From contig NZ_CP018863.1 in assembly GCF_002849715.1 (NCBI RefSeq), positions 806,001-870,000 of the forward strand: a DNA stretch of 64,000 nt, written 5' to 3'. Numbering within the stretch: the first letter of the stretch is position 1; every line of letters starts with the position of its first letter. Shown piece after piece: positions 3,927-31,952 of this stretch. The translations under genes were made by a program, and so were the position numbers. The notes below the pieces were generated by a model. The model was not told the DNA's origin. It saw nothing but the letters and a program-made list of their open reading frames with translations, and searched no databases. The DNA comes from Arthrobacter crystallopoietes (GTDB taxonomy: Bacteria; Actinomycetota; Actinomycetes; Actinomycetales; Micrococcaceae).

Positions 3927-4235
3927 ATGTCCGGCAAGGAGATGTCTTTGTCCTACAACGAACGAATGCAGCTGGAGGAGCTGGAGAGGCGGATCGATAC
4001 GGAAGATCCTGCATTTGCGCGGAAGCTTCGGGCCGGGGAGGCGGGGCAGTCGGCGCCAGTTCCGAGCTGGCCGGGGCTGTTCGTGCTGTTGACCGGAGTG
4101 CTGGTACTCCTGTTCGGCGTCGCCACGCAATTACCTCTCATCGGGATTATCGGCTTCCTGCTAATAGTTATCGGGGGATATAAGCAGGTTCGCGAGCCGC
4201 TCCCCCACGAGGATTCGGACGGGCCGTCCAGGTAA
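3927..4235 (+). CDS. DUF3040 family small membrane protein
   Basis: 102 residues from the ATG at 3927, placed eight bases after an AAAGGAG ribosome-binding site. The N-terminus (SLSYNERMQLEELERRI) carries the DUF3040 signature: a short amphipathic helix followed by a region on 'DPAFARKL'. Two membrane segments follow at about 48-67 and 69-87. DUF3040 proteins are common, small and uncharacterised in Actinobacteria. A second member lies at 13705-14022 on the other strand. Confidence 0.85.
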   Translation: MSGKEMSLSYNERMQLEELERRIDTEDPAFARKLRAGEAGQSAPVPSWPGLFVLLTGVLVLLFGVATQLPLIGIIGFLLIVIGGYKQVREPLPHEDSDGPSR

Positions 4236-4280
4236 TTAAGCCCCCGTCAACAATCAGCGATAAAGGGAGGTCGAATTCTC

Positions 4281-4595
4281 ATGTTGGACACGATCAATTT
4301 CACCCTGACAGCCGAATGCCGCCAAGGGGATGAGCAGACCTTCCGTGACGTTATTGACTGGATATTAGCTAACGGTGTGGGAGGTGCGTCCTTCGAAGCT
4401 GCCGAGGTAACCGGCGGCGTAGCGTACCTCCACGGATCCATCGTCGGCGACCGCCGGTTGGTCGCGGAATCCGGACTTGCCGAGTATCTCTCCGACGTTC
4501 TCGCCCGCAAGGAAGGCATCCACGTGGATATCAGCGTCCACATCGCCTCGCCGGGCAGGCAGCTGCCGGCTGAGCACGCGGCGGTTGCGGCATAA
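4281..4595 (+). CDS. Hypothetical 104-residue protein
   Basis: The gene starts 45 bases after the DUF3040 gene with an AGGGAGG ribosome-binding site. The protein is acidic and soluble, with a mix of predicted strands and helices (NFTLTAEC, TFRDVIDWILANGVG, VHVDISVHIASPG). I do not recognise a family. It could be cotranscribed with the upstream gene. A hairpin 31 bases after its stop supports a transcript end there. Confidence 0.7.
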   Translation: MLDTINFTLTAECRQGDEQTFRDVIDWILANGVGGASFEAAEVTGGVAYLHGSIVGDRRLVAESGLAEYLSDVLARKEGIHVDISVHIASPGRQLPAEHAAVAA

Positions 4596-4626
4596 CGGTC
4601 CGGCACGCGTAATGAAGCACCCAGAA

Positions 4627-4653
4627 CCGCGGCAGCACCGAGGTCTGCCGCGG
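4627..4653 (+). terminator. Hairpin after the hypothetical gene
   Basis: CCGCGGCAG and CTGCCGCGG form a perfect 9-bp stem with a 9-base loop, 31 bases after the stop at 4595. No U-run follows, which is common in high-GC actinobacterial terminators. Confidence 0.5.
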
Positions 4654-4705
4654 GGCCTTCCACATATCCGGCTGTTGCGTTCCATTCGGCACCGGTGGCA
4701 AACCA

Positions 4706-4734
4706 TTGACCCCGGCTGGTCCCGGGGGTACGAA
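4706..4734 (+). promoter_or_regulatory. Candidate promoter with dyad for the protoglobin operon
   Basis: TTGACC (4706-4711) and TACGAA (4729-4734) are spaced by 17 bases. Between them CCCCGG (4710-4715) and CCGGGG (4722-4727) form an inverted repeat, a position suited to repressor binding. The start codon follows at 4766. The -10 match is weak. Confidence 0.35.
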
Positions 4735-4765
4735 TGAGGGACGCGAACTAGTTGGAGGTATGGCC

Positions 4766-5362
4766 ATGTCGTCCGAGTCGACCAACACAGAGATACCCGG
4801 CTACAACTACGGAACCGCCGAGCATTCGCCCGTCACCCTGACCGAGTTGGAGGAACTCAAGGCCAGTGTGATGCTCGATGAGCGCGACGTGGCGATGCTG
4901 CAGCGGGCGGGTGAGCTGCTCGATGACCAGGTCGATGACATTCTCGATGTCTGGTACGGCTTCGTCGCCAGCCAGCCGCAACTCGTGGCCCAATTTTCCC
5001 AGCCCGGCGGCCCACCCATCGATGAGTACCTCGCGGCGGTGCGTCCGAGATTCGGGCAATGGATTCGTGACACGTGTTCCCGCTCCTACGACCAGGAGTG
5101 GCTGGATTACCAGAACGAGATCGCGCTCCGGCACACCCCCGCCCACAAGAACGAGACGGACCAGGTCGGCTCCACCTCGGTAGTGCCGCTGCGGCATCTC
5201 ATCGCGTTGACCGGGCCGGTCACGATCACAGTCCGTCCCTTCCTGGCCCGCAAAGAGAACGACGGCGAACAAGTTGACGCCATGATGCAGGCCTGGCTCA
5301 AAGCGGTGCTGCTGCAGATTGCCTTGTGGTCGCGGCCGTATACGCGGGAAGGGCAATGGTAG
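4766..5362 (+). CDS. Protoglobin-domain haem protein
   Basis: 198 residues. The ATG at 4766 sits seven bases after GGAGG; the ATG at 4760 is too close to that site. The sequence follows the protoglobin fold: an N-terminal segment with YNYG, a globin core, and the RHTPAHKNETDQ motif (about residues 125-137), where the His is the expected proximal haem ligand. Protoglobins bind O2, CO and NO; free-standing members have no known enzymatic role. The stop overlaps the start of the hemerythrin-like gene, so the two are translationally coupled. Confidence 0.85.
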   Translation: MSSESTNTEIPGYNYGTAEHSPVTLTELEELKASVMLDERDVAMLQRAGELLDDQVDDILDVWYGFVASQPQLVAQFSQPGGPPIDEYLAAVRPRFGQWIRDTCSRSYDQEWLDYQNEIALRHTPAHKNETDQVGSTSVVPLRHLIALTGPVTITVRPFLARKENDGEQVDAMMQAWLKAVLLQIALWSRPYTREGQW

Positions 5363-5901
5363 AGATGGTCAACGAAGCCAAAGATGTGAACAGCGACCAG
5401 CAGGCCATCGCCGCCGTCGAACACCATCACGGGCAGATGCTGACCCGGCTGAACCATTTGACCCGCGCGTTGGTTGACGCCGTGGAAAGCGGGAAGAAGT
5501 CGGCCGAACATGACGCTCACGAGCTGCTGGTGGAATGGTGCGAAAACGACCTCATTCCGCATGCCTTGGCAGAAGAGTCAGCTCTTTATGAACGTGCCCG
5601 TTCCCGGCCCGAGGCGAACCTTCTTGTCGAGGGCATGCTCGCCGAACACCGGGTGATCACAGATACGTTGGAGGAACTACGCGGCGCACAGGGCATCCGT
5701 GCCGCTGCCCTGGCCACCGCCATCGAGCGCCTCTTCGCCCAACACCTGGACAAGGAAAACAAGCTGCTGCTGCCCTTCTTTGTTTCCCAGCCGGACCTGT
5801 CCCTGGTCGAGGCGGTCGAAGGGCTACATGAAATCGTCGGCGAGGCCCATCCCCATGGCGGCGAGCATCTGCATACAACTACGGAAACCCGACTGGCCTG
5901 A
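5356..5901 (+). CDS. Hemerythrin-like (HHE) domain protein
   Basis: 181 residues from the ATG at 5356, which overlaps the protoglobin stop by seven bases; the ATG at 5365 is an alternative start. Iron-ligand candidates are visible in order: EHHHGQM, ENDLIPHALAEE, EHRVI and AQHLDKENKLLLPFF, the pattern of a four-helix di-iron HHE domain. A short His-rich tail (EAHPHGGEHLH) follows. Such proteins bind O2 or respond to NO and oxidative stress. Coupling to a protoglobin suggests joint handling of a diatomic gas; which gas is inference. Confidence 0.85.
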   Translation: MVEMVNEAKDVNSDQQAIAAVEHHHGQMLTRLNHLTRALVDAVESGKKSAEHDAHELLVEWCENDLIPHALAEESALYERARSRPEANLLVEGMLAEHRVITDTLEELRGAQGIRAAALATAIERLFAQHLDKENKLLLPFFVSQPDLSLVEAVEGLHEIVGEAHPHGGEHLHTTTETRLA

Positions 5902-5921
5902 GAGGACAGATCGGCTGAGTG

Positions 5922-5948
5922 CGGACGGCGTGGACTCCACTCGGTCCG
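5922..5948. terminator. Weak hairpin between convergent genes
   Basis: CGGAC/GTCCG and GTGGA/TCCAC pair around a small internal loop between the hemerythrin stop (5901) and the GntR stop (5965). It could serve both strands. Confidence 0.3.
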
Positions 5949-5964
5949 GCTGCGCTCTATTCCG

Positions 5965-6654
5965 CTACTCTCCCGCTTGCGGCATCCAGGACATGCAGTA
6001 GTTGAGGTTGGCGTTGACGGTCGCTACGGCCGCGTCCTCGTCGCGGGCGGCAATGGCTGCCACGAGCGCCTCATGCCCGGCTTCCAGGCATCCGTCGAAT
6101 CCGTTGCGCAGCCGCTGGGCCATTTTCGTGCCATGGAAGACGTCTCCGAAACTCCCGTAGAGCTCGTGCAGCAGCCTGTTGCCCGAGGATTCCGCCACCT
6201 TCAAGTGGAAATCCCAGTCGGCCGCAATCCACTGTTCCAGATCCTCCGCCGCCCAAGCCTCGCGGCGCTTGGCGAGCATCGCATGCATAGCCGCGATGTC
6301 GCCGTCGTTAGCCAGTCGGGCCGCCAGACGCGCGGCCTTCGTGTCCAGAGCGAAGCGGACCTGCAGCACGTCCTCGTCCTCGTGCTCCCGGTAGGCCTTC
6401 CGGGCGGCACCATGGATCTCGCTGGCCGCGCGAACGTAGGTGCCGTCCCCGCGCCGGACCTCCAGCATCCCCGCGTGGGCCAGCGCCTTGACTCCCTCGC
6501 GCAGGGTCCCCCGCGAGACGCCGAGCTGCGCCATGAGCTCGGGTTCGGGCGGGATCCGTTCCTGCAACGGCCACTGGCCGGAGACGATCGCCTCGCGCAG
6601 TCGCTCGGTGACTTCGTCGGCCAACTGCGGGCGTTGGATTGAACCGAGCGTCAT
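5965..6654 (-). CDS. GntR family regulator, FadR/FCD type
   Basis: 229 residues from the ATG at 6654, which overlaps the stop of the upstream permease gene as ATGA. Residues 1-75 form the winged helix (LREAIVSGQWPLQERIPPE, LGVSRGTLREGVKALAHAGML). The rest is an all-helical FCD ligand domain with the metal or ligand residues expected (DWDFHLKVAESSGN, GHEALVAAI). It is cotranscribed with the permease it probably controls, and the operator at 8048-8062 fits the GntR half-site pattern. The same reading frame stays open upstream into the permease gene; that is not a fusion. Confidence 0.9.
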   Translation of the reverse strand: MTLGSIQRPQLADEVTERLREAIVSGQWPLQERIPPEPELMAQLGVSRGTLREGVKALAHAGMLEVRRGDGTYVRAASEIHGAARKAYREHEDEDVLQVRFALDTKAARLAARLANDGDIAAMHAMLAKRREAWAAEDLEQWIAADWDFHLKVAESSGNRLLHELYGSFGDVFHGTKMAQRLRNGFDGCLEAGHEALVAAIAARDEDAAVATVNANLNYCMSWMPQAGE

Positions 6655-8036
6655 GCCTGGCTCCCCTCGCCGCGACGCCCACGCAAGCGCCCCCGGCCAC
6701 GGCCACCTGAACGAACCCGGCCCCGGCCAGCACCACGTCCACCAGCAGAGCCGGCACCGCCACCCGCGCTGAGCCAGTACGCCAGGAACAGCTGCAGCAC
6801 TGCCACGCCCACCATCAGCTCCAGCGACAGAGTCCATCCGCCGGTGGCCGCGTGCAGCAACCCCAAACCGAACGGACCCACAGTCGCCACGAGATAACCC
6901 ACCGACTGGGCAAGAGTGGACATCGCTGTGGTTTCCGCCGCGTTGCTTCCGCTGCGGCTGATCACCACCATGACAATCGGGAACACCGAGAACCCGATGC
7001 CGATCAGCAGCACCGGCACAAGGACCAGCTGGTCGGGCGTGACCAATAGGCACGTGTAGCCCAGGAAGCTGGCGCCGGTCGACACCATGAACGCCGGGCG
7101 CAGCAGCCGCGGCTTGCTGGCCATCGCCAGCACCAGGACGACGGCGGGAATGCTGATCAATTGCAAGGCCCCGAGCATCAGGCCCGCGGACGCCGGATCC
7201 AGGCCGCGGGCGATGAGGATGGAGGGCAGCCAGCTGATGATCGTGTAGACCAGCAGCGCCTGCACTGTGAAGAGTCCCGTGATCAGCAGGCCTTTTCGTG
7301 TCAGCAGCAACGGCCACGGCGAAACGCCCGCGCCGGTCTCGGCCACCGGGCGCGGCTTGCCGGCCACAGCAAGCGGAATGAACGCGAGCAGGGCGACGAT
7401 GGCCAGGAGCGACCACGATGCAAGGCCCATGACCGGCGAGTTCAGCTGCATCGCCACCGGCACGCTCAGCGCTGCGGCAGTGGTCGCGCCGATCGACATG
7501 GTGATGGTGTAGACGCCCGTCATGGTGGAGGTCCGGTGCGCAAAGTGTTTGCGGATGAAGGAGGGCATCGCCACGTTGCAGATGGCCAGCCCGGACATGC
7601 TGACCACGGTGCCCAGCAGCAGCATGCTGACCGAATCGACCACGCGCAGCGCCAGTCCGGCCGTGAGCAGCGTCAACGCAACAGCGATCGCGCGTTCCAA
7701 ACCGACGAGTCTGCTCAGCCAGGACGTGGCTGCGCCCGCTACGGCGAAGCAAATAACGGGGATCGACGGCAACGTGGCGGCAACCAGCGGTCCGTACCCC
7801 AGCAGCAACTGCAGATCGTGGAACAAGGCGGCGGCGCTGGCCACACCCACTCGCAAATTCAGACCAATGAGCACGACGGCGGCAATCGCCAGGAAGGCTG
7901 CAAGCCTTTTCGGTGTGGCCGGCTTCGGCGCTATCTGACGTTCGTCCAACTCCGGAGCAAGAGTTTCATCCAGGACTTCGCCCAAATTCTCATTGGCAGG
8001 TTCATGAAGAGGCGCTTGAGTAATTCGGGACGACAT
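6651..8036 (-). CDS. MFS transporter, CynX/NimT (cyanate permease) family
   Basis: 461 residues with about 12 membrane segments starting near residue 45, after a polar N-terminal tail. The GLNLRVGVAS loop near TM1 is typical of the CynX/NimT branch, whose members move cyanate, 2-nitroimidazole or unknown anions; substrate is unknown here. The last about 35 residues are an unusual Arg/Gly-rich cytoplasmic tail (GRGAGRGRVRSGGRGRGR). The start codon has no ribosome-binding site and lies about eight bases after a -10 element, so the mRNA may be leaderless. Its last codon overlaps the GntR start. Confidence 0.85.
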   Translation of the reverse strand: MSSRITQAPLHEPANENLGEVLDETLAPELDERQIAPKPATPKRLAAFLAIAAVVLIGLNLRVGVASAAALFHDLQLLLGYGPLVAATLPSIPVICFAVAGAATSWLSRLVGLERAIAVALTLLTAGLALRVVDSVSMLLLGTVVSMSGLAICNVAMPSFIRKHFAHRTSTMTGVYTITMSIGATTAAALSVPVAMQLNSPVMGLASWSLLAIVALLAFIPLAVAGKPRPVAETGAGVSPWPLLLTRKGLLITGLFTVQALLVYTIISWLPSILIARGLDPASAGLMLGALQLISIPAVVLVLAMASKPRLLRPAFMVSTGASFLGYTCLLVTPDQLVLVPVLLIGIGFSVFPIVMVVISRSGSNAAETTAMSTLAQSVGYLVATVGPFGLGLLHAATGGWTLSLELMVGVAVLQLFLAYWLSAGGGAGSAGGRGAGRGRVRSGGRGRGRLRGRRGEGSQA

Positions 8037-8044
8037 ACGTAAAC

Positions 8045-8073
8045 ATTAGACGTTTGACGTCTTCTCGTGCAAA
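8045..8073 (-). promoter_or_regulatory. Promoter of the MFS-GntR operon
   Basis: Reading leftward, TTTGCA (8073-8068) and TCTAAT (8050-8045) are 17 bases apart. The -10 box matches 5 of 6 bases. The start codon lies eight bases beyond, consistent with a leaderless transcript. Confidence 0.55.
8048..8062. promoter_or_regulatory. Probable GntR operator
   Basis: AGACGTTTGACGTCT is a perfect 6-bp inverted repeat (AGACGT/ACGTCT) around TTG, with the GT-N3-AC core that FadR-type GntR proteins favour. It overlaps the -10 box of the permease promoter, so binding should repress. Binding by the neighbouring GntR is inference. Confidence 0.55.
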
Positions 8074-8236
8074 GTGCCTAGTCAAACACGAGCAGTGCAC
8101 TCTTGACGAACTGGTGGCTCCTGTAGACACAGCACGTCTGCTTCTGAGTCCTATGAGGGGCTGGGAGACTTGAAACGATCAGAACACTGTCCTCTGACCG
8201 CATTCTTTACCTGGGACGAACTGGAAGGAAGTATCG

Positions 8237-9172
8237 ATGCGCATATTGATTGTTGGCGCGGGAGCTACCGGAGGTGCGTTTGGAACGCGGCTCCAGGAAG
8301 CCGGCAGGGACGTCACTTACCTTGTTCGCTCTGAACGCCAGAGACTCCTGCAACGGGATGGCCTGCGCTTCCTCGCCCCCGACGGGGATCGCACGCATGC
8401 CGTTACCGCCGTCACGGGCATTTCTGAAGGTGACCATTACGACCTGGTGGTGATCGCGGTGAAAGCACCCGCACTCAAGGCGATCCTCGGCACCGCCGGC
8501 CCGGCAATCGGCAAGAAGACGCAGATTCTCCCGTTCCTCAACGGTCTTGACCATATCGACGTGCTCGAAGACGCATTTCCGGGGCAGGTGATTGGCGGCC
8601 TCGTGAAAATCGTCGCCATGGTCGACGAATTTGGTGCCATCCGGCAAATGACACCCCTGTCCACAATGACCATCGGGGCGTTGACGGCCGATCCTCTGCC
8701 TCCCTCCCTTGTGGAAACCCTGGATGTTCCCGGCATCGACCTGACCATCACGACCACGATCATGCAGCAACTCTGGGAAAAGTGGGCGTTCATCAGCGCA
8801 GCCGGCGCTCTCACCTGCCTACTACGCAACAATGTGGGCGCGATCCTCGAAGCAGGAGGCCGGCCCCAAATCCTACAAGCAATCGCCGAAGCCGAAAACG
8901 TTGCGGCAGCTGCAGGCTACCCCGTGAGCGAGCCAGGACATCAGCAGAGCCTGCAGATGCTGTCAGCTCCGGGGTCCTCGTTCACTTCTTCGCTTTACCG
9001 GGATCTTCAAAGGGGGCAGGCAGTCGAAGCCGAGCACCTTCTCGGGTCTCTCGCGGCGCGGGCACGAACCTTGAACGTCGATACGCCGCTCTTGGATCTC
9101 GCCGTGACACAGGTGCGGGCTCACCACATCAACCCCACCGGTGGAGGGATCTTCGACTCGGCCTCCGCCTGA
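8237..9172 (+). CDS. Ketopantoate reductase family protein (PanE/ApbA)
   Basis: 311 residues from an ATG after GGAAGGA. The N-terminal Rossmann motif is GAGATGGAFG (residues 7-16). The family's conserved Lys and the Asn of the catalytic domain are plausible at VIAVKAPALKAIL and FLNGLDHID, and WEKWAFISAAGALTCLLR is the usual C-terminal dimerisation signature. PanE makes pantoate for coenzyme A; paralogues of this family act on other 2-keto acids. No pantothenate genes are adjacent, so a catabolic paralogue is possible. It is divergent from the MFS-GntR operon and shares its 200-base intergenic region. Confidence 0.88.
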   Translation: MRILIVGAGATGGAFGTRLQEAGRDVTYLVRSERQRLLQRDGLRFLAPDGDRTHAVTAVTGISEGDHYDLVVIAVKAPALKAILGTAGPAIGKKTQILPFLNGLDHIDVLEDAFPGQVIGGLVKIVAMVDEFGAIRQMTPLSTMTIGALTADPLPPSLVETLDVPGIDLTITTTIMQQLWEKWAFISAAGALTCLLRNNVGAILEAGGRPQILQAIAEAENVAAAAGYPVSEPGHQQSLQMLSAPGSSFTSSLYRDLQRGQAVEAEHLLGSLAARARTLNVDTPLLDLAVTQVRAHHINPTGGGIFDSASA

Positions 9173-9303
9173 AAGGCCCTGGAGGCGGCATAGAAACCAG
9201 AGACTCCGCAGCGATCAGATGAGTCGCATTCCGCATTCACCCCTCAATCACCGCGGGCGCAGTTGTGGACAGCAGCCAACGGTACGACGGACGGCCGTTA
9301 CTT

Positions 9304-9513
9304 TCAGAGTCCTGCATCCTTCAGCGATTGAATATCGCGGCGGCGTTCGCTCTCGATAATTTTCATCATCTGCCGTTGGATCTTGTCCACGGCGTGTCTG
9401 TTCAGTTCCTTGCGGAGCAGGGCCAGTTCGTCAGCAGCGATCTGCCGACGGATCCCGTCGCGCTCAGCAACAGTCGGGGCCTGCTTCAGCGCCCTTTGAT
9501 AGCGCTCTTCCAC
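9304..9513 (-). CDS. Small hypothetical helical protein
   Basis: 69 residues from a GTG at 9513, with no clear ribosome-binding site. The sequence is strongly charged and looks entirely helical (AERDGIRRQIAADELALL, RHAVDKIQRQMMKIIESE), possibly a coiled coil. It has no recognised domain. The upstream 150 bases hold three copies of TTTACACGT, which might be its control region. Confidence 0.4.
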   Translation of the reverse strand: MEERYQRALKQAPTVAERDGIRRQIAADELALLRKELNRHAVDKIQRQMMKIIESERRRDIQSLKDAGL

Positions 9514-9605
9514 AATAGGATTTTAGTTCCCACTGCCCCGCATAGACCAGAGCCGGGGAGCGATGCCAGCGGACTCCTCTGGCGAATTCAATGACGTTGA
9601 GGGGC

Positions 9606-9668
9606 ACGTGTAAAAATTTCGACGGATTCTTTACACGTTTGCTGCACACATAAACATCCTTTACACGT
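9606..9668. repeat. Three copies of TTTACACGT
   Basis: The 9-mer occurs at 9630-9638 and 9660-9668, and inverted (ACGTGTAAA) at 9606-9614, in a short AT-rich intergenic region. The direct copies are 30 bases apart, close to three helical turns. This suggests a cooperative protein-binding site. Confidence 0.55.
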
Positions 9669-9671
9669 CGG

Positions 9672-10571
9672 CTACGACAGCACGTCTTTAGTGGCGAAGC
9701 GGCTGTAGGCGAGCGCGCAGAAGACGACGATGTAGCCGCCTTGGAGCAGGCCGTTGGCGGCGAAGGAGTCCCAGGAGATCGGCTGGCGGAGCAGGTCCGC
9801 GAAGCCGAGCCAGTGGTGGCTGAACAGCCAGGGGTGGAGCCATTCGAGCTGCGGAAGGTTGTCGAGGATCTGGGACACGACGGCGAGCACAGCGGTCGCG
9901 GCCATGGCGCCGACGGGGACCTCGGTCAGGGTGGAAATAAATAGACCGATGGCCGCGAGTCCGAGCAAGGACAGACCGACGTAGCAGGCCACCAGGAACA
10001 GCCGCAGCAATGACTCGCCTACGCTGATCGTGTCGCCGGAAAGCAGGGTGATCGGGCCTACGTCGAAGAGCGCCGAGCCGATCAGCACTCCTGCCGTCGC
10101 CACGGAGAGTGCGGCGGCAAGGCAGAAGACGACGGCGGCCGCATACTTCACCGCCAGCAGCCGGATCCGACCAGCCGGCGCCGCGAGCAGATACCTCAGG
10201 GTTCCGTGGCCGGCCTCGCCCGCAATCGTGTCCCCCGCGGCCACGCTGACAGTCAGCGGGAGGAACAGCGGGATGGATACAACCATGCCGGTCAGCGCGA
10301 TGAACAGTCCGTTCTGGGATACGCGGTCCAGGAACGGCGGACCCTGGCCGGGACCCGGATCGCGTGAGGAAAGCCGGACAGCGAGCGCTATCAGTACCGG
10401 GACGGCAGCGAGCGCCGCCAGCATGGCCCAGGTTCGCCAGCGCCGGAAGAGCACCTTCAGCTCGGACCCCAGCAGCGCCCAGCCCGCGGAGGGCCGGGAT
10501 GCGGTTACTCGTGATCCGCCATTGCCAGACGACGGTCCGTTTGGTGCAGATGCGGGCAGCTTATTGGACAA
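9672..10571 (-). CDS. ABC-2 type transporter permease
   Basis: 299 residues. A proline/serine-rich cytoplasmic N-terminus is followed by six or so membrane segments, the first at about 48-66 (AMLAALAAVPVLIALAV). The fold matches the ABC-2 permeases of the NosY/YhaP type. It overlaps the upstream ATPase gene by 11 bases, and the two should form one exporter. The substrate cannot be read from the sequence. Confidence 0.85.
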   Translation of the reverse strand: MSNKLPASAPNGPSSGNGGSRVTASRPSAGWALLGSELKVLFRRWRTWAMLAALAAVPVLIALAVRLSSRDPGPGQGPPFLDRVSQNGLFIALTGMVVSIPLFLPLTVSVAAGDTIAGEAGHGTLRYLLAAPAGRIRLLAVKYAAAVVFCLAAALSVATAGVLIGSALFDVGPITLLSGDTISVGESLLRLFLVACYVGLSLLGLAAIGLFISTLTEVPVGAMAATAVLAVVSQILDNLPQLEWLHPWLFSHHWLGFADLLRQPISWDSFAANGLLQGGYIVVFCALAYSRFATKDVLS

Positions 10572-24869: not shown

Positions 24870-27617
24870 CTAACTACCAACGACGACGGCGGGGGCGCGT
24901 CCCAGGTGCTGGCGCATCAGTTCGGCGCGCGTACTGATGCCGAGCTTGGCATACACGTTGCGGAGGTGGAAGTCGATGGTGCGCGGGCTGAGGAAGAGCC
25001 GTGCGGCGACATCGCGGTTGGTCATGCCCTGCTGGACCAGGCCAGCGACCTGGAGTTCCTGCGGGGTCAGCGTTGCTGCGGTGGAAGGATCGCGCTTGCG
25101 TGCCGTCCTGCCGGAGGCGCGCAGTTCCTGGCCGGCGAGTTCCTCCCAGCGGGCGGCGCCGAGGTCAGCGAAGGTTTCCATCGCGGCCTGCAGCTGGGCG
25201 CGGGCATCGACCCGGCGGCGCTCCCGGCGCAGGAACCGGCCGTAGGCTAGCTGGGTCCGGGCACGGTCGAATACTCGCGGCGACGAGGCGTGGTGTTCCA
25301 GCGCCAACTGGTAGAGCTTTTCGGCGTCGGCCGGGTTGTCGGCCAGCAACGCGCGGCCGTGCTCGGTGCTGGCAGCCGCCCAGACGTTGCCCGTGGCCGC
25401 GGCGAATTCCTCCAGGTCCGCCAGCCGGCTGGCGGCCTCATCCTGCTGCCCGGTTGCCATCGCGGACTCGAAGAAGTCGATGGCGGCCAGCCGACGCGTC
25501 AACGGCAGTTCCAGCTGGGCCAGATGATGGTGGGCCGCTTCGGGCTGGCCGCTGTGGACGGCCTTGGCCCACAACCGGAGATCGTGGGTCAGGCCGGCGA
25601 CGATGCCCAGCGGATGGTTCGCCGCAACGTCGTCGGCCGCCGCCAGGTGGCGCGCGTAGCCGTCGTCGTTCTGCAAGGCATCGAGCAGGGCCAGCAGCGT
25701 CAGTGGTGAAGCGGTCAGGCCCGGCTGCCCGGTGCCGTTGGCCAGTTGCAGGGCTTCGGCCGCGCCGGCCCGGGCCTCGTCCCAGTTGCCGGTGGCCACA
25801 TCGGTGACGGCCCGCCGGGTCAGCGCGTAGAGCACCATGATCAGCGCGCCGGTGCCGCGCGCCCGGGCCAGCAGCAGGTTGTGGTACTTCAGCGAGGCGT
25901 CATCATCGCCCAAGTGCAGGGCTGCGATGCCGAGGTTGGGCAGCAGGTCCTGGTCCGCGTTCTCCAGCGACGCCCCGTCGGCGAAGGCCGCCCTGAGCAC
26001 CGGCGCGCCCTGCTCCATCTCGCCGCGGGACACGTGGTGCAGGCCCACCAGCAGGTGCCAGAAGCTGTGCTCCCGGGCGGGCGCGCCGGCCTCCGGAGGG
26101 ACCGCGACGTCGACGGGCGTGATGCCGATGCCGGAGTCGCCGCCGAAGGAAGCAAGCGCGGCGGCGAACATCGCCATTTCCCGCGCACGCACAGGATCCG
26201 CCTGGGCTACATCGCGGGCGCCCTGCAGGATCATATGGTGGCCCAACTGGAGAGAACCGGTGTTCCACTCGATCCGGGCACGACGACGAACCGCGTCTGC
26301 GCGGAGTCCCGGGCTTCCGGCCATGGCTACCGCGGCGTCGCTGAGGGTCCGGGCACGGGCAGCCTGTCCCGCCAGCCACGCGCTGCCGGCCGCCTCATAC
26401 AAACGCCGTGCCTTGGCTTCGGCGTCGAGGGTCAGCTCCGCGGCGCGTTCCCAGGCAGCGCTGGCGGCCTCGTGCCCGCCGCGGCTGCGCGCCCTTTCGG
26501 CCACCTGGTCCAGTTCGGCGGCCACCGCTTCGTCGTCGTCCTCCGCAGCCGCGGCCAGATGCCAGACCCGGCGGTCCGGGCTGTGCTCCTGGGCCAGCAC
26601 CTCCGCCAGTGCAGCGTGGGCCTGCCGGCGCCGGTAGGCCCTGGCGGAACCGTAGACGGCCGAGCGGACCAGCGGATGGCGCAGCTGCAGCCTCCCGTCC
26701 GCGACCTTCAGCAGGCCGGATTGTTCCACCGCATCGAGCGCGTCGTCGCCCGCGCCCAGCGCCTTGGCTGCTTGCCGCACGGTGGTGAGCTGGCCGGCGT
26801 CGTCCGCCGCTGCCACGAGAAGCCAGGTTTGCGCGTGCTCCGGCAAGCGCCGGCAGCGGTCCAGAAAGGCCCGCTCCACGCCGGCGGTGAGCGGCAGATG
26901 GTGCGGCAGTCCCGACGTTCCGGCCAGTTGTTCGGGCGACAAGGACCCGGCCAGCTCCACCAGGGCCAGCGGATTGCCGGCGGTGCTGCGCACCAGCTCG
27001 CCGGTGACTTCGGCCGGAACAACGACGCCGGAATGCTCGGCCAGCAGCTCTGCCGCCGTCTGCTCATCAACGCCCGCCAGCGCCAATGCCGGCAGGTCGC
27101 CGTAGTCGAACTGGCGCTCGTCGCCGTCGCGGGCGGCGAACAGCACCGCCACCCGCTCCGCGTCCAGCCGGCGTGCCACGAACAGCAGCGCCGCGGCCGA
27201 GACGTCGTCCAGCCACTGCGCATCGTCGATGACCGCCAGCACGGGCTGGTGCTCGGCGGCTTCGGCCAGCAGGCTCAACGCGGCGAGGAAGATCAGGAAC
27301 CGGTCCACGCTCTCGGTGGCGATTTCGCCGAAGGCGGCCTTCAGCGCGTGGGCCTGCGGTTCGGGGAGCCGGTCTGTGTAGGACATGACTGGGCGCAGCA
27401 GCCGGTGCAGCGCAGCGAAGGCCAGCGGGGATTCGGACTCGATGCCCCGGGTCCGCAGTACGCGCAGGCCCTCGGCCCCGGTCACGGCGTCGTTGAGCAG
27501 CGTCGACTTGCCTACGCCCGGCAGGCCGTGGATGACAAGGGCGTTGCCCCGTGAAGTGCGGGCTTCTTCGATCAGCCCCACAATGACCGCGCGCTCCCGC
27601 GCCCTCCCCTGGATCAC
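24870..27617 (-). CDS. Large ATP-binding LuxR family regulator (LAL/MalT-like)
   Basis: 915 residues from a GTG at 27617 with no evident ribosome-binding site. The N-terminal ATPase has Walker A GLPGVGKST (31-39) and Walker B VLAVIDDAQWLDD. A long TPR-like helical middle follows (about 350-820). The C-terminus is a LuxR helix-turn-helix (TPQELQVAGLVQQGMTNRDV, RTIDFHLRNVYAKLG). Such STAND-type activators switch on when a small molecule or protein binds. It is divergent from the copper operon by 135 bases, though a link to copper is not established. Its last codons are read from a copy of the ACGACGGCGG word. Confidence 0.92.
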   Translation of the reverse strand: MIQGRARERAVIVGLIEEARTSRGNALVIHGLPGVGKSTLLNDAVTGAEGLRVLRTRGIESESPLAFAALHRLLRPVMSYTDRLPEPQAHALKAAFGEIATESVDRFLIFLAALSLLAEAAEHQPVLAVIDDAQWLDDVSAAALLFVARRLDAERVAVLFAARDGDERQFDYGDLPALALAGVDEQTAAELLAEHSGVVVPAEVTGELVRSTAGNPLALVELAGSLSPEQLAGTSGLPHHLPLTAGVERAFLDRCRRLPEHAQTWLLVAAADDAGQLTTVRQAAKALGAGDDALDAVEQSGLLKVADGRLQLRHPLVRSAVYGSARAYRRRQAHAALAEVLAQEHSPDRRVWHLAAAAEDDDEAVAAELDQVAERARSRGGHEAASAAWERAAELTLDAEAKARRLYEAAGSAWLAGQAARARTLSDAAVAMAGSPGLRADAVRRRARIEWNTGSLQLGHHMILQGARDVAQADPVRAREMAMFAAALASFGGDSGIGITPVDVAVPPEAGAPAREHSFWHLLVGLHHVSRGEMEQGAPVLRAAFADGASLENADQDLLPNLGIAALHLGDDDASLKYHNLLLARARGTGALIMVLYALTRRAVTDVATGNWDEARAGAAEALQLANGTGQPGLTASPLTLLALLDALQNDDGYARHLAAADDVAANHPLGIVAGLTHDLRLWAKAVHSGQPEAAHHHLAQLELPLTRRLAAIDFFESAMATGQQDEAASRLADLEEFAAATGNVWAAASTEHGRALLADNPADAEKLYQLALEHHASSPRVFDRARTQLAYGRFLRRERRRVDARAQLQAAMETFADLGAARWEELAGQELRASGRTARKRDPSTAATLTPQELQVAGLVQQGMTNRDVAARLFLSPRTIDFHLRNVYAKLGISTRAELMRQHLGRAPAVVVGS

Positions 27618-27752: not shown

Positions 27753-27998
27753 ATGTCCCTCCGCTTCCGCCGCAGCCAGCCGGACGAAGGCCAGCTGATC
27801 CGAACCACCTACCAGGTAGCCGGCATGTCCTGCGGGCATTGCGAGACCGCGGTCAAGACCGAGATCGGCAGCCTGGCGTCGGTGACCGGCGTCGACGTCG
27901 ACCTTTCCTCGGGGGCGGTCACCGTAGCGAGCCAGCGTCCGCTGGCCCGCAACGACGTCGCCGCCGCAGTGACCGAGGCCGGCTACACCCTCATCTGA
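27753..27998 (+). CDS. Copper chaperone CopZ (HMA domain)
   Basis: 81 residues. The metal motif is GMSCGHC, followed by the ferredoxin-like betaalphabeta pattern (TAVKTEIGSLASVTGVDVDL). The ATG follows AAGGAG. It would hand Cu(I) to the ATPase encoded 650 bases downstream. It is first in the copper operon. Confidence 0.92.
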   Translation: MSLRFRRSQPDEGQLIRTTYQVAGMSCGHCETAVKTEIGSLASVTGVDVDLSSGAVTVASQRPLARNDVAAAVTEAGYTLI

Positions 27999-28055: not shown

Positions 28056-28565
28056 ATGAACAACACCGAACTGCACGCCTCCACCAGCACGACCACCACG
28101 TCCCCCACCACCAGCCGCGGCAGGCGTATCTGGCTTTTCACTCGGCACTACCTGGAAATGGTGGTCGCCATGATCCTGGGCATGGTCGTCCTCGGCCCGG
28201 TCTGGAACTGGCTGACCCGCGCCGCCGGTGTCTCCGCCGTGTTCGACCGGCCGGATGTGGCCTCACTGGTCATGGCGACGAACATGACCGTGGCGATGGG
28301 CGCCTGGATGAAGTTCCGCGGGCACGGCTGGGCACCGATTATCGAGATGGGCGCGGCCATGTACCTGCCGTTCATCGTGCTCTTCGTCCCGCTCTGGATG
28401 GGCGCGATCGACGGCCATACTGTGATGGCCGCCGGGCACCTGCTGATGCTGCCGGCGATGGCCATCGCGATGCTGCTGCGGCTGGACGAATACACCCAGG
28501 ACCATGCGCACCACCGCCACTCCGCCGACCAGGCCCACGAGCACCACGCGCACAAACACGCCTGA
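28056..28565 (+). CDS. Copper-operon membrane protein with His-rich tail
   Basis: 169 residues. After a Thr/Ser-rich start there are four membrane segments (VVAMILGMVVLGPVWNWL, SLVMATNMTVAMGAWMKF, IIEMGAAMYLPFIVLFV, VMAAGHLLMLPAMAIAML). These helices are rich in Met (MATNMTVAMGAWM), and the C-terminal tail is crowded with His (DHAHHRHSADQAHEHHAHKH). Met and His together suggest Cu(I)/Cu(II) binding. Relatives in other actinobacterial copper operons are sometimes labelled FliP, which is not supported. A role in copper transfer or sensing is inferred. Confidence 0.75.
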   Translation: MNNTELHASTSTTTTSPTTSRGRRIWLFTRHYLEMVVAMILGMVVLGPVWNWLTRAAGVSAVFDRPDVASLVMATNMTVAMGAWMKFRGHGWAPIIEMGAAMYLPFIVLFVPLWMGAIDGHTVMAAGHLLMLPAMAIAMLLRLDEYTQDHAHHRHSADQAHEHHAHKHA

Positions 28566-28661
28566 GCCGGCCCACCGCTTCCCCGCCGGGCTGCCGCTGC
28601 TTACCGAAGTAGCCGCTGCCCGGCGCAACCCCTTGAACAAAACAGACCGAAAGGAATGACC

Positions 28662-31600
28662 GTGAGTACCTCGGTTCTGGCTGAATGCACGCTCGAGATC
28701 GGCGGCATGACCTGCGCCTCCTGTGTAGGCCGGGTGGAAAAAGCCCTGACAAAGCTCGACGGCGTGGCCTCCGCCCACGTCAACCTCGCCACCGAAGCGG
28801 CCCGGGTTTCGTACAACCCGGACGCGGTCGGGCTCGAGGACCTCACCGCCGCGGTCATCGCGGCCGGCTACACCGGCAGCCTCCGGCAGCTCCCCCAGAC
28901 GCCGGCGCCCGACGTACGGAAGGTGCCGGAGCCGCCGTCGTCCGTTGATGATGACAGGGAGGCCCGCCGCGACGCGGAACTTGCCGGACTCAAGCGGAAG
29001 TGGCAGGTCGCGTTGGCGGCCGGGCTGTCCCTGATGGCGGTGATGTATGTGCCGCTGCCGATCGATGCGATGGACTGGCTGATGCCGCTGCTGCTGGTGG
29101 TCGCCACCGCGGTGCAGTTCTGGGCCGGCCGCGGGATCTACGCCGCAGCCTGGGCCGCCGCCCGGCACCGCAGTACCAACATGAACACGCTCGTGGCCCT
29201 CGGAACCGGGGTGGCGTACGGCTACAGCGCCTTCGTCACCCTGTGGCCGGGCGTGGCCGAGAGCCAGGGCCTGCCGCTGCACGTCTACTTCGAGACGTCG
29301 CTGGTCATCATCGCACTGGTGCTGATGGGCAAGTGGCTGGAGGGCCGGGCGAAGAAGCAGACAGCCGCGGCGATCAAGGCGCTGGCCGGACTGTCGCCCA
29401 AAACGGCGCGCGTGATCCGCGGCGGCGTCGAGCTGGATGTGCCCGTGGACGACGTCGTTGTTGGTGATCTAGTGCGGGTCCGCCCGGGCGAAAAAGTTCC
29501 GGTCGACGGCGTGGTCACCGAAGGCGCGTCCGCGGTGGACGAGAGCATGCTGACCGGCGAGAGCATGCCGGTGGACAAGCGGCCCGGCGACACCGCCATC
29601 GGCGGGACCATCAACCGGACCGGCTCCCTGGTGCTGCGCGCCACCGCCGTGGGCGCCGACACCGCGCTGGCACAGATCATCCGCCTGGTCGAGGACGCGC
29701 AGGGTTCGCGGGCGCCGATGCAGCGGCTGGCCGACAAGGTTTCCGCGTGGTTTGTCCCCGCGGTGCTGCTCATCGCCGCCGGCACGTTCGCCGGCTGGGC
29801 GCTGTTCGGTCCGGACACCGGCCGGCTGACGCTGGCCATCGGCACCGCGATCGCCGTCCTCATCATCGCCTGCCCGTGCGCGCTGGGCCTCGCCACCCCG
29901 ACGGCCGTCATGGTGGGCACCGGCAAGGCGGCCGAGCTGGGCATCCTGATCGGCAACGGCGAAGCGCTCGAACAGGCCCGCCGGCTGACCGCCGTCGTCC
30001 TCGACAAGACCGGCACGATCACCACCGGCCGTCCCCGACTGACCGAAATTACGACGGCGGGGGCTTGGGACCGCGACGAAATCCTCGCCTTGGTGGGGGC
30101 GGCCGAGCGCGGCAGCGAGCACCCGCTCGGTGAAGCCATTGTTGCCGCAGCCCGCGAGCGCGCGGCGGAGCGGGGTCTGGAGTTGCCGGAAGCCGAGAAG
30201 TTCGAGGCACTGCCGGGCCACGGTATCGATGCCGAGGTGGCCGGCCGGCACATCCTGATCGGCAACCGAGCGCTGGTGGTTTCGGCTGGCCGCCTGGGCA
30301 CCGCAGTTGCCCGGCTCGACGCCGCTGCCGCCGAGGCCGCACGGCAAGGCCAAACCCCGGTGTACGTCGCCATCGACGGCGAGCCCGCCGCGCTGCTCAC
30401 CGTCGCGGACAGCATCCGGCCCGAATCCGCCGAGGCCATCGCCCAGCTGAAGGCGCTCGGCGTCGAGGTCTGGATGCTGACCGGCGACAACACCGCCACC
30501 GCCGCCGCGGTAGCCCGGTCCGTCGGGATCGAGCACGTGATGGCCGAGGTCCTGCCCGGCGAAAAGGCGGACCGGATCAGCGCCCTGCAGCGCGAGGGCC
30601 ACGTTGTCGCCATGGCCGGTGACGGCATCAACGATGCTCCCGCACTGGCGCAGTCGGATCTGGGCATCGCCATCGGCACCGGAACCGACGTCGCCATCGC
30701 CGCCTCGGACATCACGCTGGTGGGTGGGGACCTGCGCGGCTTCGTGTCCGCGATCGCCCTCTCCCGACGCACCGTCGCCACCATCAAGCAGGGCCTGTTC
30801 TGGGCCTTCGCCTACAACGCGCTGCTCATCCCGGTGGCGGCCGGGGCGCTGCACTTCGCCGGCGGGATCCTGCTGGACCCCATCCTGGCCTCGGCGGCGA
30901 TGGCAATGAGTTCGGTCAGCGTGGTCACCAACGCCCTGCGCCTGCGCGGCTTCCGCCGCCCAGCCGGCGTGCAGGAGATCCTGCATCCGCCGCTGCGTGC
31001 GCGGGTCGGCCAGTACGCCTACCTCACCGGTGTGGCCGCCGTCGCCGTCGCACTGGGAACCGCCTTCACCCTGCTCAGCCACACCGACGCGGCGCAACGC
31101 GGCATGAACGGCGTGCTCGCCTGGACCCAGTCCACCGGCATGCCGATGCGCCCGGCCATGAGCACCATGATGACCACCGACGTCGACCCGCTCCCCGCCG
31201 AGGAAGCCGACGTCAACGTCCGGCTCGACGTACCCGCAGCCACGCGGCCCGGCGAACCCACCCGGGTTTTGGTGGAGCTCACCGACGCCACCACCGGTGC
31301 GCCGCTCAAGGACCTGGGCCTGAGCCACGAAGTCTGGATGCACCTGATTGTCACCCGCGACGATCTGGGCAGCTTCGCCCACGTCCACCCCGAGCCGACC
31401 GGCCAACCGGGACAGCTCGCCGTCGAACTCACCTTCCCCACCACCGGCAACTACCTGGTCAACACCGAGTTCCGCAGGCAGGGCCAGATGCAGGACATCC
31501 ATGCCGACCAGCAGCTGCGCGTCGGCGGCACCGCCACCCCGAATCCGGAAACGCTCACAGAAAGCCCGCGCACCCAGATTAACGACGGCGTCCGCGTCAT

Positions 31601-31952
31601 CTTGGAGGGCGAGGCAACGGCCGGACAGACCAGCGAGCTCTCCTTCACCTTCGCCGATGCCGCCACGGGTCGGCCAATCAGCAGCCTGAAGCCGTATCTG
31701 GCGGCAGCCGGACACGTAGTGATCATGGACGCGGCCGGCGAGGAGTTCGCGCACGAACACGCCGACGTCGAAGACGCCGACGGCAATCCGGTCTTCGCCC
31801 TGCCCGGCCAGCAGTTCGGACCCGAACTCACCGTCCACGCCCACTTCGACAAGCCGGGCCTCTACCGATTGTGGGGCCAGTTCCGGCTGCCGGATGACCG
31901 CGTGATCACGGCGCCCTTCACGGTCCAGGTCACCGACGACGGCAATGGATGA
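28662..31952 (+). CDS. Cu(+)-translocating P-type ATPase with long C-terminal extracytoplasmic domain
   Basis: 1096 residues from the GTG at 28662, six bases after AAGGA; the ATG at 28656 abuts that site. An N-terminal HMA domain has GMTCASC. The P1B core has the CPC motif (about 404-406), DKTGT (448-452), the HP pair (487-488) and GDGINDAP (653-660). It differs from ordinary 750-residue CopA: an extra membrane segment ([19 protein letters not shown], about 785-805), a Met-rich linker ([15 protein letters not shown]), and about 245 further residues with two beta-type modules containing [27 protein letters not shown] and VHAHFDKPG. The extra helix should place this end outside the cell. Confidence 0.93.

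Follow-up and report, generated by a model that had tools for sequence, protein, structure and literature searches.

The window, the whole 64,000-nucleotide stretch of DNA analysed here, carries a copper operon on its forward strand in which copZ is followed by a small membrane protein gene and by a copA gene with a fused 3' extension. The features of the locus are given below, with residue numbers here and throughout counted from the ATG at 28656.

27753..27998, forward strand: copZ, probably the first gene of the operon, for a cytosolic copper chaperone of the HMA type (Pfam HMA, 3.4e-10)
28056..28565, forward strand: gene between copZ and copA for a small membrane protein whose C terminus is rich in His, no convincing family
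28656..31952, forward strand: CopA with fused tail, one open frame of 1098 aa, or 1096 aa if translation starts at GTG 28662
28689..28874, forward strand: N-terminal HMA domain, residues 12–73 (Pfam PF00403, 1.7e-17)
29001..30950, forward strand: P1B-1 ATPase core, residues 116–765, with CPC, DKTGT, HP and GDGIND (TIGR01511 and motifs)
31011..31094, forward strand: ninth predicted membrane helix (TM7), residues 786–813 (hydropathy peak 1.89)
31104..31172, forward strand: Met-rich linker, residues 817–839 (M817, M829, M831, M835, M838, M839; W823)
31191..31535, forward strand: YtkA-like module 1, residues 846–960, with H891, H896, H909 and H911 (PF13115, E 0.0016, below cut-off)
31557..31943, forward strand: YtkA-like module 2, residues 968–1096, with H1020, H1033 and H1035 (by homology to module 1)

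The deposited protein (P0002) has 1096 aa, the same length as the frame read from the GTG at 28662, and this codon is better spaced than the ATG at 28656 from an upstream AAAGGA. Since protein length and spacing agree, the start at 28662 chosen in the first-pass annotation is reasonable. The best NCBIfam match of copZ was CopZ (4.6e-15), below the cut-off of that family. Among the loci examined, relatives of the 28056–28565 protein (tblastn, E ≤ 1e-3) were found, besides the window's own, only in L001 and L145 (both 87%) and in L147 (77%); the close relatives seen in these loci all lie beside a fused CopA. Divergent from the copper operon lies a large LuxR-type regulator gene (24870–27617, reverse strand) that may control the copper genes; L147 has a divergent ORF of 912 aa (7383–10121) that is, by eye, similar to it.

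By family score and motifs, residues 12–765 are a Cu(I) P1B-1 ATPase (CopA). The copper P1B ATPase family TIGR01511 scored 598.7 bits against a cut-off of 397 in the NCBIfam scan, and GMTCASC was found at position 17, TGE at 300, CPC at 406, DKTGT at 450, HP at 489 and GDGIND at 655, so the complete P1B core claimed in the first-pass annotation (HMA, CPC, DKTGT, HP, GDGIND) is all present. Alignments with the solved CopAs 3j09, 3rfu and 7r0g end at residues 764–769, and that with plant HMA4 at 779. About 320–330 residues of the window protein are therefore extra with respect to the solved CopAs, in agreement with the earlier claim of an extension past the typical end of CopA.

Eight canonical membrane segments are followed by a ninth, TM7 (segments called from hydropathy only). 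Lys and Arg are more frequent in the 25 residues before TM7 than after it in 141 of 143 TM7 sequences, including all 43 of those labelled as having a YtkA tail. Because TM7 is the ninth helix and positive residues are concentrated before it, the tail is predicted to lie outside the membrane, which is where the first-pass annotation had placed it on the strength of an extra helix; neither hydropathy nor charge bias pointed to a cytoplasmic tail. The Met-rich linker and two modules described there were likewise recovered, at residues 817–839, 846–960 and 968–1096, and hhalign shows the two modules to be homologous (99.4%, E 2.9e-21).

We searched for the same fusion in other genomes. When 8000 candidates were scored against residues 785–1098, 605 proteins reached E ≤ 1e-3. 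Not counting 15 matches no longer than 950 aa and the copies from the window itself, 104 of the best 120 are other full-length fused homologues; coming from the top of the ranking, they are fairly close relatives. Their number rules out a chance or frameshift fusion. All organism-named matches in the best 120 are actinobacterial (Geodermatophilus, Blastococcus, Streptomyces, Kineococcus, Crystallibacter and others), and the fusion is widespread in Actinomycetota. Stand-alone tails outnumber fused ones in the genomes sampled. Across the phylum, at least 29 of 396 genomes have a match and at least 2 have the fusion (G000, and G386, whose gene is broken across contig ends); across the family, at least 35 of 245 genomes have a match and at least 4 have the fusion, judged by long frames and 68–100% identity. 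These counts are lower bounds, with the best 6 (phylum) or 10 (family) candidates scored per genome. All four family-level fusions belong to the window's own genus, in which they account for 4 of 10 genomes (again a lower bound). This patchy distribution would suit horizontal transfer. An origin on a plasmid was considered and rejected: relatives of the tail occur in 228 of 72,556 plasmid records, all at less than 60% identity, and in the 25 best and 45 spread plasmid matches inspected no ATPase was named under the match, the features there being mostly hypothetical or unannotated.

The tail resembles the YtkA family at the limit of detection. The window tail itself matched PF13115 (YtkA) with 19.5 bits, against a cut-off of 25.9 (E 0.0016); the best of 36 relatives matched at 8.4e-6, above the cut-off, and L050 reached 26.8 bits. 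Matches at E ≤ 0.05 were obtained for 16 of the 36 members of alignment A2, the window included, and a precomputed PF13115 is carried by 8 of the best 120 of the 605 tail matches. The relatives suggested in the first-pass annotation, CusF, CopC and YcnI, found no support in sequence, which favours YtkA/CtaK. Compared by sequence, CusF gave no family match in Pfam or NCBIfam and no PDB match; CopC (PF04234) was not matched by the tail and is a separate domain fused to it in L082, where a CopC domain and the same YtkA-like tail share one frame (4044–6629); and nothing in the sequence linked the tail to YcnI. FixH/CcoH was also rejected, with no PF05751 match and no recognisable cbb3 gene among the listed ORFs of the window. 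One distant tail homologue is annotated as FixH family, and a deep kinship with FixH is possible. A search of the PDB with the tail sequence returned no match, and a search with the tail profile returned mainly polyubiquitin chains, weak hits of about 7 bits summed over repeats that we discarded.

M817, M829, M835, M838, M839 and W823 are kept in all 104 full-length fused homologues and M831 in 102, and H891, H896, H909, H911, H1020, H1033 and H1035 are likewise kept in 104 of 104. Over these homologues the core averages 0.744 identity to the window, TM7 0.615, residues 814–848 0.756, and the modules 0.632 and 0.620, so that the linker region is conserved to the same degree as the ATPase core, and TM7 less. 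The Met-rich linker is specific to the window's clade; other tails have different, less Met-dense linkers. The seven His extend further: each of 24 more distant fusions outside this clade has all of them. These 24 were taken from the best 120 matches of the M6-TM7 region by a profile required to span at least 80% of the tail, with no motif rule, although the profile was built from the A2 alignment, which itself contains those His. An earlier count of 20 of 20 was biased, the YtkA label rule having demanded one His-x-His motif. H896, H909, H911, H1020, H1033 and H1035 are present in all of the best 120 of 906 stand-alone relatives, and H891 in 116. By contrast, conservation of H949 and H1061 does not reach beyond the fusion clade to which the window belongs, and H1063 is found in 13% of its fused homologues. 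Thus seven His and five linker Met hold in 104 of 104 homologues, whereas in the VHAHFDKPG motif named in the first-pass annotation H1061 is conserved in the clade only and H1063 is mostly absent. The outcome given there as counting against the proposed acceptor, a lack of conservation of His and Met in homologues, was not observed, the key His and linker Met being invariant. The locus-level comparison of tails omitted L005 (in-frame stop), L052, L053 and L084 (contig-end fragments), L055, L056 and L078.

We also examined 34 loci with a stand-alone relative of the tail (a set that omits L052, L053 and L084). A hydrophobic start segment is present in 26 of the 34 (17-residue mean ≥ 1.9), followed by a linker, often with His, and then by the same two modules. 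A P1B core lies within 3 kb in 27 of the 34 loci, on the same strand in 22 and with the ATPase downstream in 21; copZ is matched in 21, and the order copZ-tail-copA on one strand is seen in 16. The window's own genome has two such stand-alone copZ-tail-copA loci besides the fusion, and with seven P1B-type genes in 5.03 Mb we estimate that about 1% of random sites would fall within 3 kb of one. Being fused or adjacent is the usual sign of functional partnership, and tail and pump are probably partners in this sense.

Outside Actinomycetota, four plasmid contexts were inspected. In a Staphylococcus haemolyticus plasmid (L150, NZ_KT359373.1, 1826–5466), a metal-sensing repressor, a P-type ATPase, CopZ and a tail homologue are consecutive, and Staphylococcus accounts for 97 of the 228 plasmid records with a tail relative; in a Hymenobacter plasmid the tail homologue adjoins RND efflux genes. 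The P1B core is absent from the stretch examined in 7 of the 34 loci (L055, L056, L073, L074, L077, L081 and L082), L073 having copZ only, and plasmid copies in Priestia and Nostoc have no recognisable copper genes nearby, indicating that the tail family is not tied only to CopA. A further partner is PF14342 (DUF4396), found on 11 of the best 120 of 906 stand-alone relatives (P0272, P0273, P0276, P0281 and seven others); L077 (5349–6743) has a similar layout and is perhaps another such fusion. That DUF4396 is repeatedly joined to this tail hints at a part for DUF4396 proteins in copper handling. Those of the best 120 stand-alone relatives that have a source name are mostly called hypothetical or secreted protein.

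To place the fusion among CopAs, we built a tree of 202 cores (193 unique), rooted with one chosen outgroup. All 143 CopAs with TM7, that of the window among them, fell in one clade that contained none of the 59 others (FastTree support 0.941). This result depends on the sample, in which TM7 members were mostly gathered by a TM7-region search and the non-TM7 members by core or locus. Script rules on motifs and length, rather than HMM calls, labelled the 143 tails as YtkA (43, of which 23 are in the window's clade, support 1.0), cupredoxin (33), DUF305 (2, being one protein sampled twice), short (51) and other (14). A profile check identified two "other" tails, P0132 and P0161, as YtkA tails, and P0210 and P0233 as partial YtkA tails; in a Pfam scan of nine tails, six had no tail match, including P0226, which is labelled YtkA. 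Parsimony requires at least 31 changes of tail type over the tree, a figure that includes label errors and truncated genes, compared with a minimum of 66 in 200 shuffles, indicating that tails are inherited yet repeatedly exchanged. Since 51 of 143 TM7 CopAs have a short tail, some perhaps from truncated assemblies, the large domain is dispensable for the pump.

The M6-TM7 region, used as the query, matched 1425 proteins at E ≤ 1. Among the best 120 of these, PF00127 (plastocyanin-type) was found on 34, PF13115 on 7 and PF03713 on 1, and the profile recognised 24 complete and 3 partial YtkA-type tails. Named sources of the PF00127-bearing matches include Chloroflexota and Thermomicrobiales. 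The cupredoxin-type domain is located after TM7 in P0152 (917–1023), P0175 (922–1027) and P0196 (821–914), whose tails show a Cys-His-Met pattern; the P0152 tail matches plastocyanin-type Copper-bind at 1.2e-11. The closest cores without a YtkA tail (64–66% identity) come from Rubrobacter-type genomes and also have TM7. L111–L113 end 78–82 residues past the M6 motif, whereas CopA of Rubrobacter tropicus (P0122, L139) has a DUF305 tail (2.2e-48) that matches the CopM metallochaperone family NF049983 with 119 bits (cut-off 90). In L140 and L141, a separate DUF305 gene (248 aa) lies 144 and 356 bases upstream of a short-tailed TM7 CopA. Six further TM7 CopAs (P0191, P0214, P0184, P0194, P0204 and P0208) continue past M6 for 169–195 residues that are either rich in Met or similar to a cupredoxin lacking the Cys, and in the first four of these the post-M6 region has no Pfam match. 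A ferredoxin-like ORF (by eye) is seen near the copper genes of Rubrobacter-type loci (L139, 3579–3998; L141, 3832–4203).

Because YtkA-like, CopM/DUF305 and cupredoxin domains as well as stubs all follow TM7, this helix looks like a platform for interchangeable copper acceptors. We tentatively propose, at somewhat less than even odds, that gain of the ninth helix founded a CopA subfamily in which at least three unrelated copper proteins have been plugged onto an exit-side helix, with Cu(I) handed over within the chain; the cupredoxin versions may bind or oxidise it at once. In the open-licence papers searched we recognised no description of a CopA that has TM7 and interchangeable outside copper domains, or to which a YtkA, CopM or cupredoxin tail is fused; such tails may be mentioned in a survey of the diversity of P1B ATPases from 2014.

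For the window protein itself, we favour, with a probability of roughly 60%, a Cu(I)-exporting P1B-1 ATPase fused to its outer-face partner protein, in which linker and modules would receive Cu(I). TM7 would lead the chain out of the membrane next to the pump, and the Met-rich segment beside it would be placed to catch Cu(I) leaving the exit site. Cu(I) would then move on to the His sites of the two YtkA-like modules, with four and three conserved His, and the modules would hold the copper or pass it to an extracytoplasmic acceptor. We infer in this way the outside location, copper binding, direct hand-off and detoxification purpose of the tail. An exit-side acceptor had been suggested in the first-pass annotation and gains support from the comparisons made here: stand-alone tails near copZ and copA support such a role, and replacement by CopM or cupredoxin in relatives does so more strongly than the evidence available then.

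The tail might instead serve cuproprotein assembly, keeping exported copper, like CtaK, for cytochrome oxidase or another enzyme and so making the ATPase a maturation pump, which we consider unlikely. FixH adjoins the ATPase FixI in cbb3 oxidase operons, an organisation that the fusion recalls. The characterised YtkA proteins, CtaK and the YcnJ domain, support the CuA site according to two reports (PMC13344008, PMC9145763); however, two distant plasmid homologues of the tail are in metal-export contexts, and the swap to CopM, a copper-resistance protein (PMC4335983), points to detoxification. The operon has copZ, and in a reading of the window ORF list (not a family search) no oxidase, Sco, CtaG or other oxidase assembly gene was recognised. 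Detoxification is the likelier purpose because no oxidase assembly gene was recognised in the window and copZ is adjacent.

His-only sites by themselves do not specify Cu(I); they suit Cu(II), as would be expected if the tail were an outside copper buffer or a relay for oxidation of Cu(I) to Cu(II) that receives nothing directly from the pump. The Cys-His-Met pattern of the Copper-bind tails and the multicopper oxidase gene of L139, which is separated from copA by three genes, would fit this proposal, but the invariant Met linker beside the helix would suit Cu(I) and covalent attachment at the exit would imply that proximity matters, and we regard it as rather improbable. A sensor role, in which outside copper binds the tail and gates the pump through TM7, is the least probable. 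Covalent coupling via a helix packed on the transport domain would allow gating, but a specific allosteric contact is difficult to reconcile with unrelated domains on the same helix and with separate-protein forms.

Ideas on how P1B ATPases release Cu(I) so that it is never free in the envelope have been based mainly on CopA and CusF. If the tail is an acceptor fused to its pump, the exit step becomes testable with one purified protein, and the exchanged acceptor domains are a natural set of swaps. Acceptor exchange also suggests that a large family, most of whose members are at present called hypothetical or secreted protein, has a role in copper export.

The pump itself is a CopA. The solved CopAs (3j09, 3rfu) share the same core, from HMA or the second helix to residues 764–769, where they stop, whereas the window protein adds a ninth helix and a tail of about 285 residues predicted to lie outside. 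CopA hands Cu(I) to periplasmic CusF (PMC7558416), a precedent for the proposed hand-off to the tail: CusF, like the tail in its proposed role, takes Cu(I) from CopA on the outer side. Unlike the tail, CusF is a separate protein with an OB-type barrel and a His-Met-Met-Trp site, and we found no sequence relation between the two. CtaK, a YtkA protein, is described in PMC9145763 as acting in CuA assembly, and substitution of its His118 by Tyr causes the oxidase defect that is also seen when the gene is lost. It resembles the tail as a membrane-anchored, extracytoplasmic YtkA-like protein, with a His needed for function, and differs from it as a separate lipoprotein for CuA assembly that is not described as a pump partner in that report. 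YcnJ of Bacillus subtilis, a CopC-CopD-YtkA protein partly redundant with CtaK (PMC13344008), is like the window CopA a copper membrane transporter with a C-terminal YtkA domain; it differs in being a proposed importer, in having CopD rather than an ATPase, and in having no TM7 platform. The YtkA domains of CtaK and YcnJ are thus precedents for copper handling by YtkA outside the membrane. CopM, described in PMC4335983 as periplasmic and free in Synechocystis, belongs to the same DUF305 family as the tail of the sister CopA in Rubrobacter tropicus and to a different family from the window tail. Finally, SCO1044 of Streptomyces coelicolor is a predicted CsoR-controlled gene (PMC6414726) numbered beside SCO1045/1046 (copZ-copA), a position that matches the stand-alone loci; that it is homologous to the tail is a guess.
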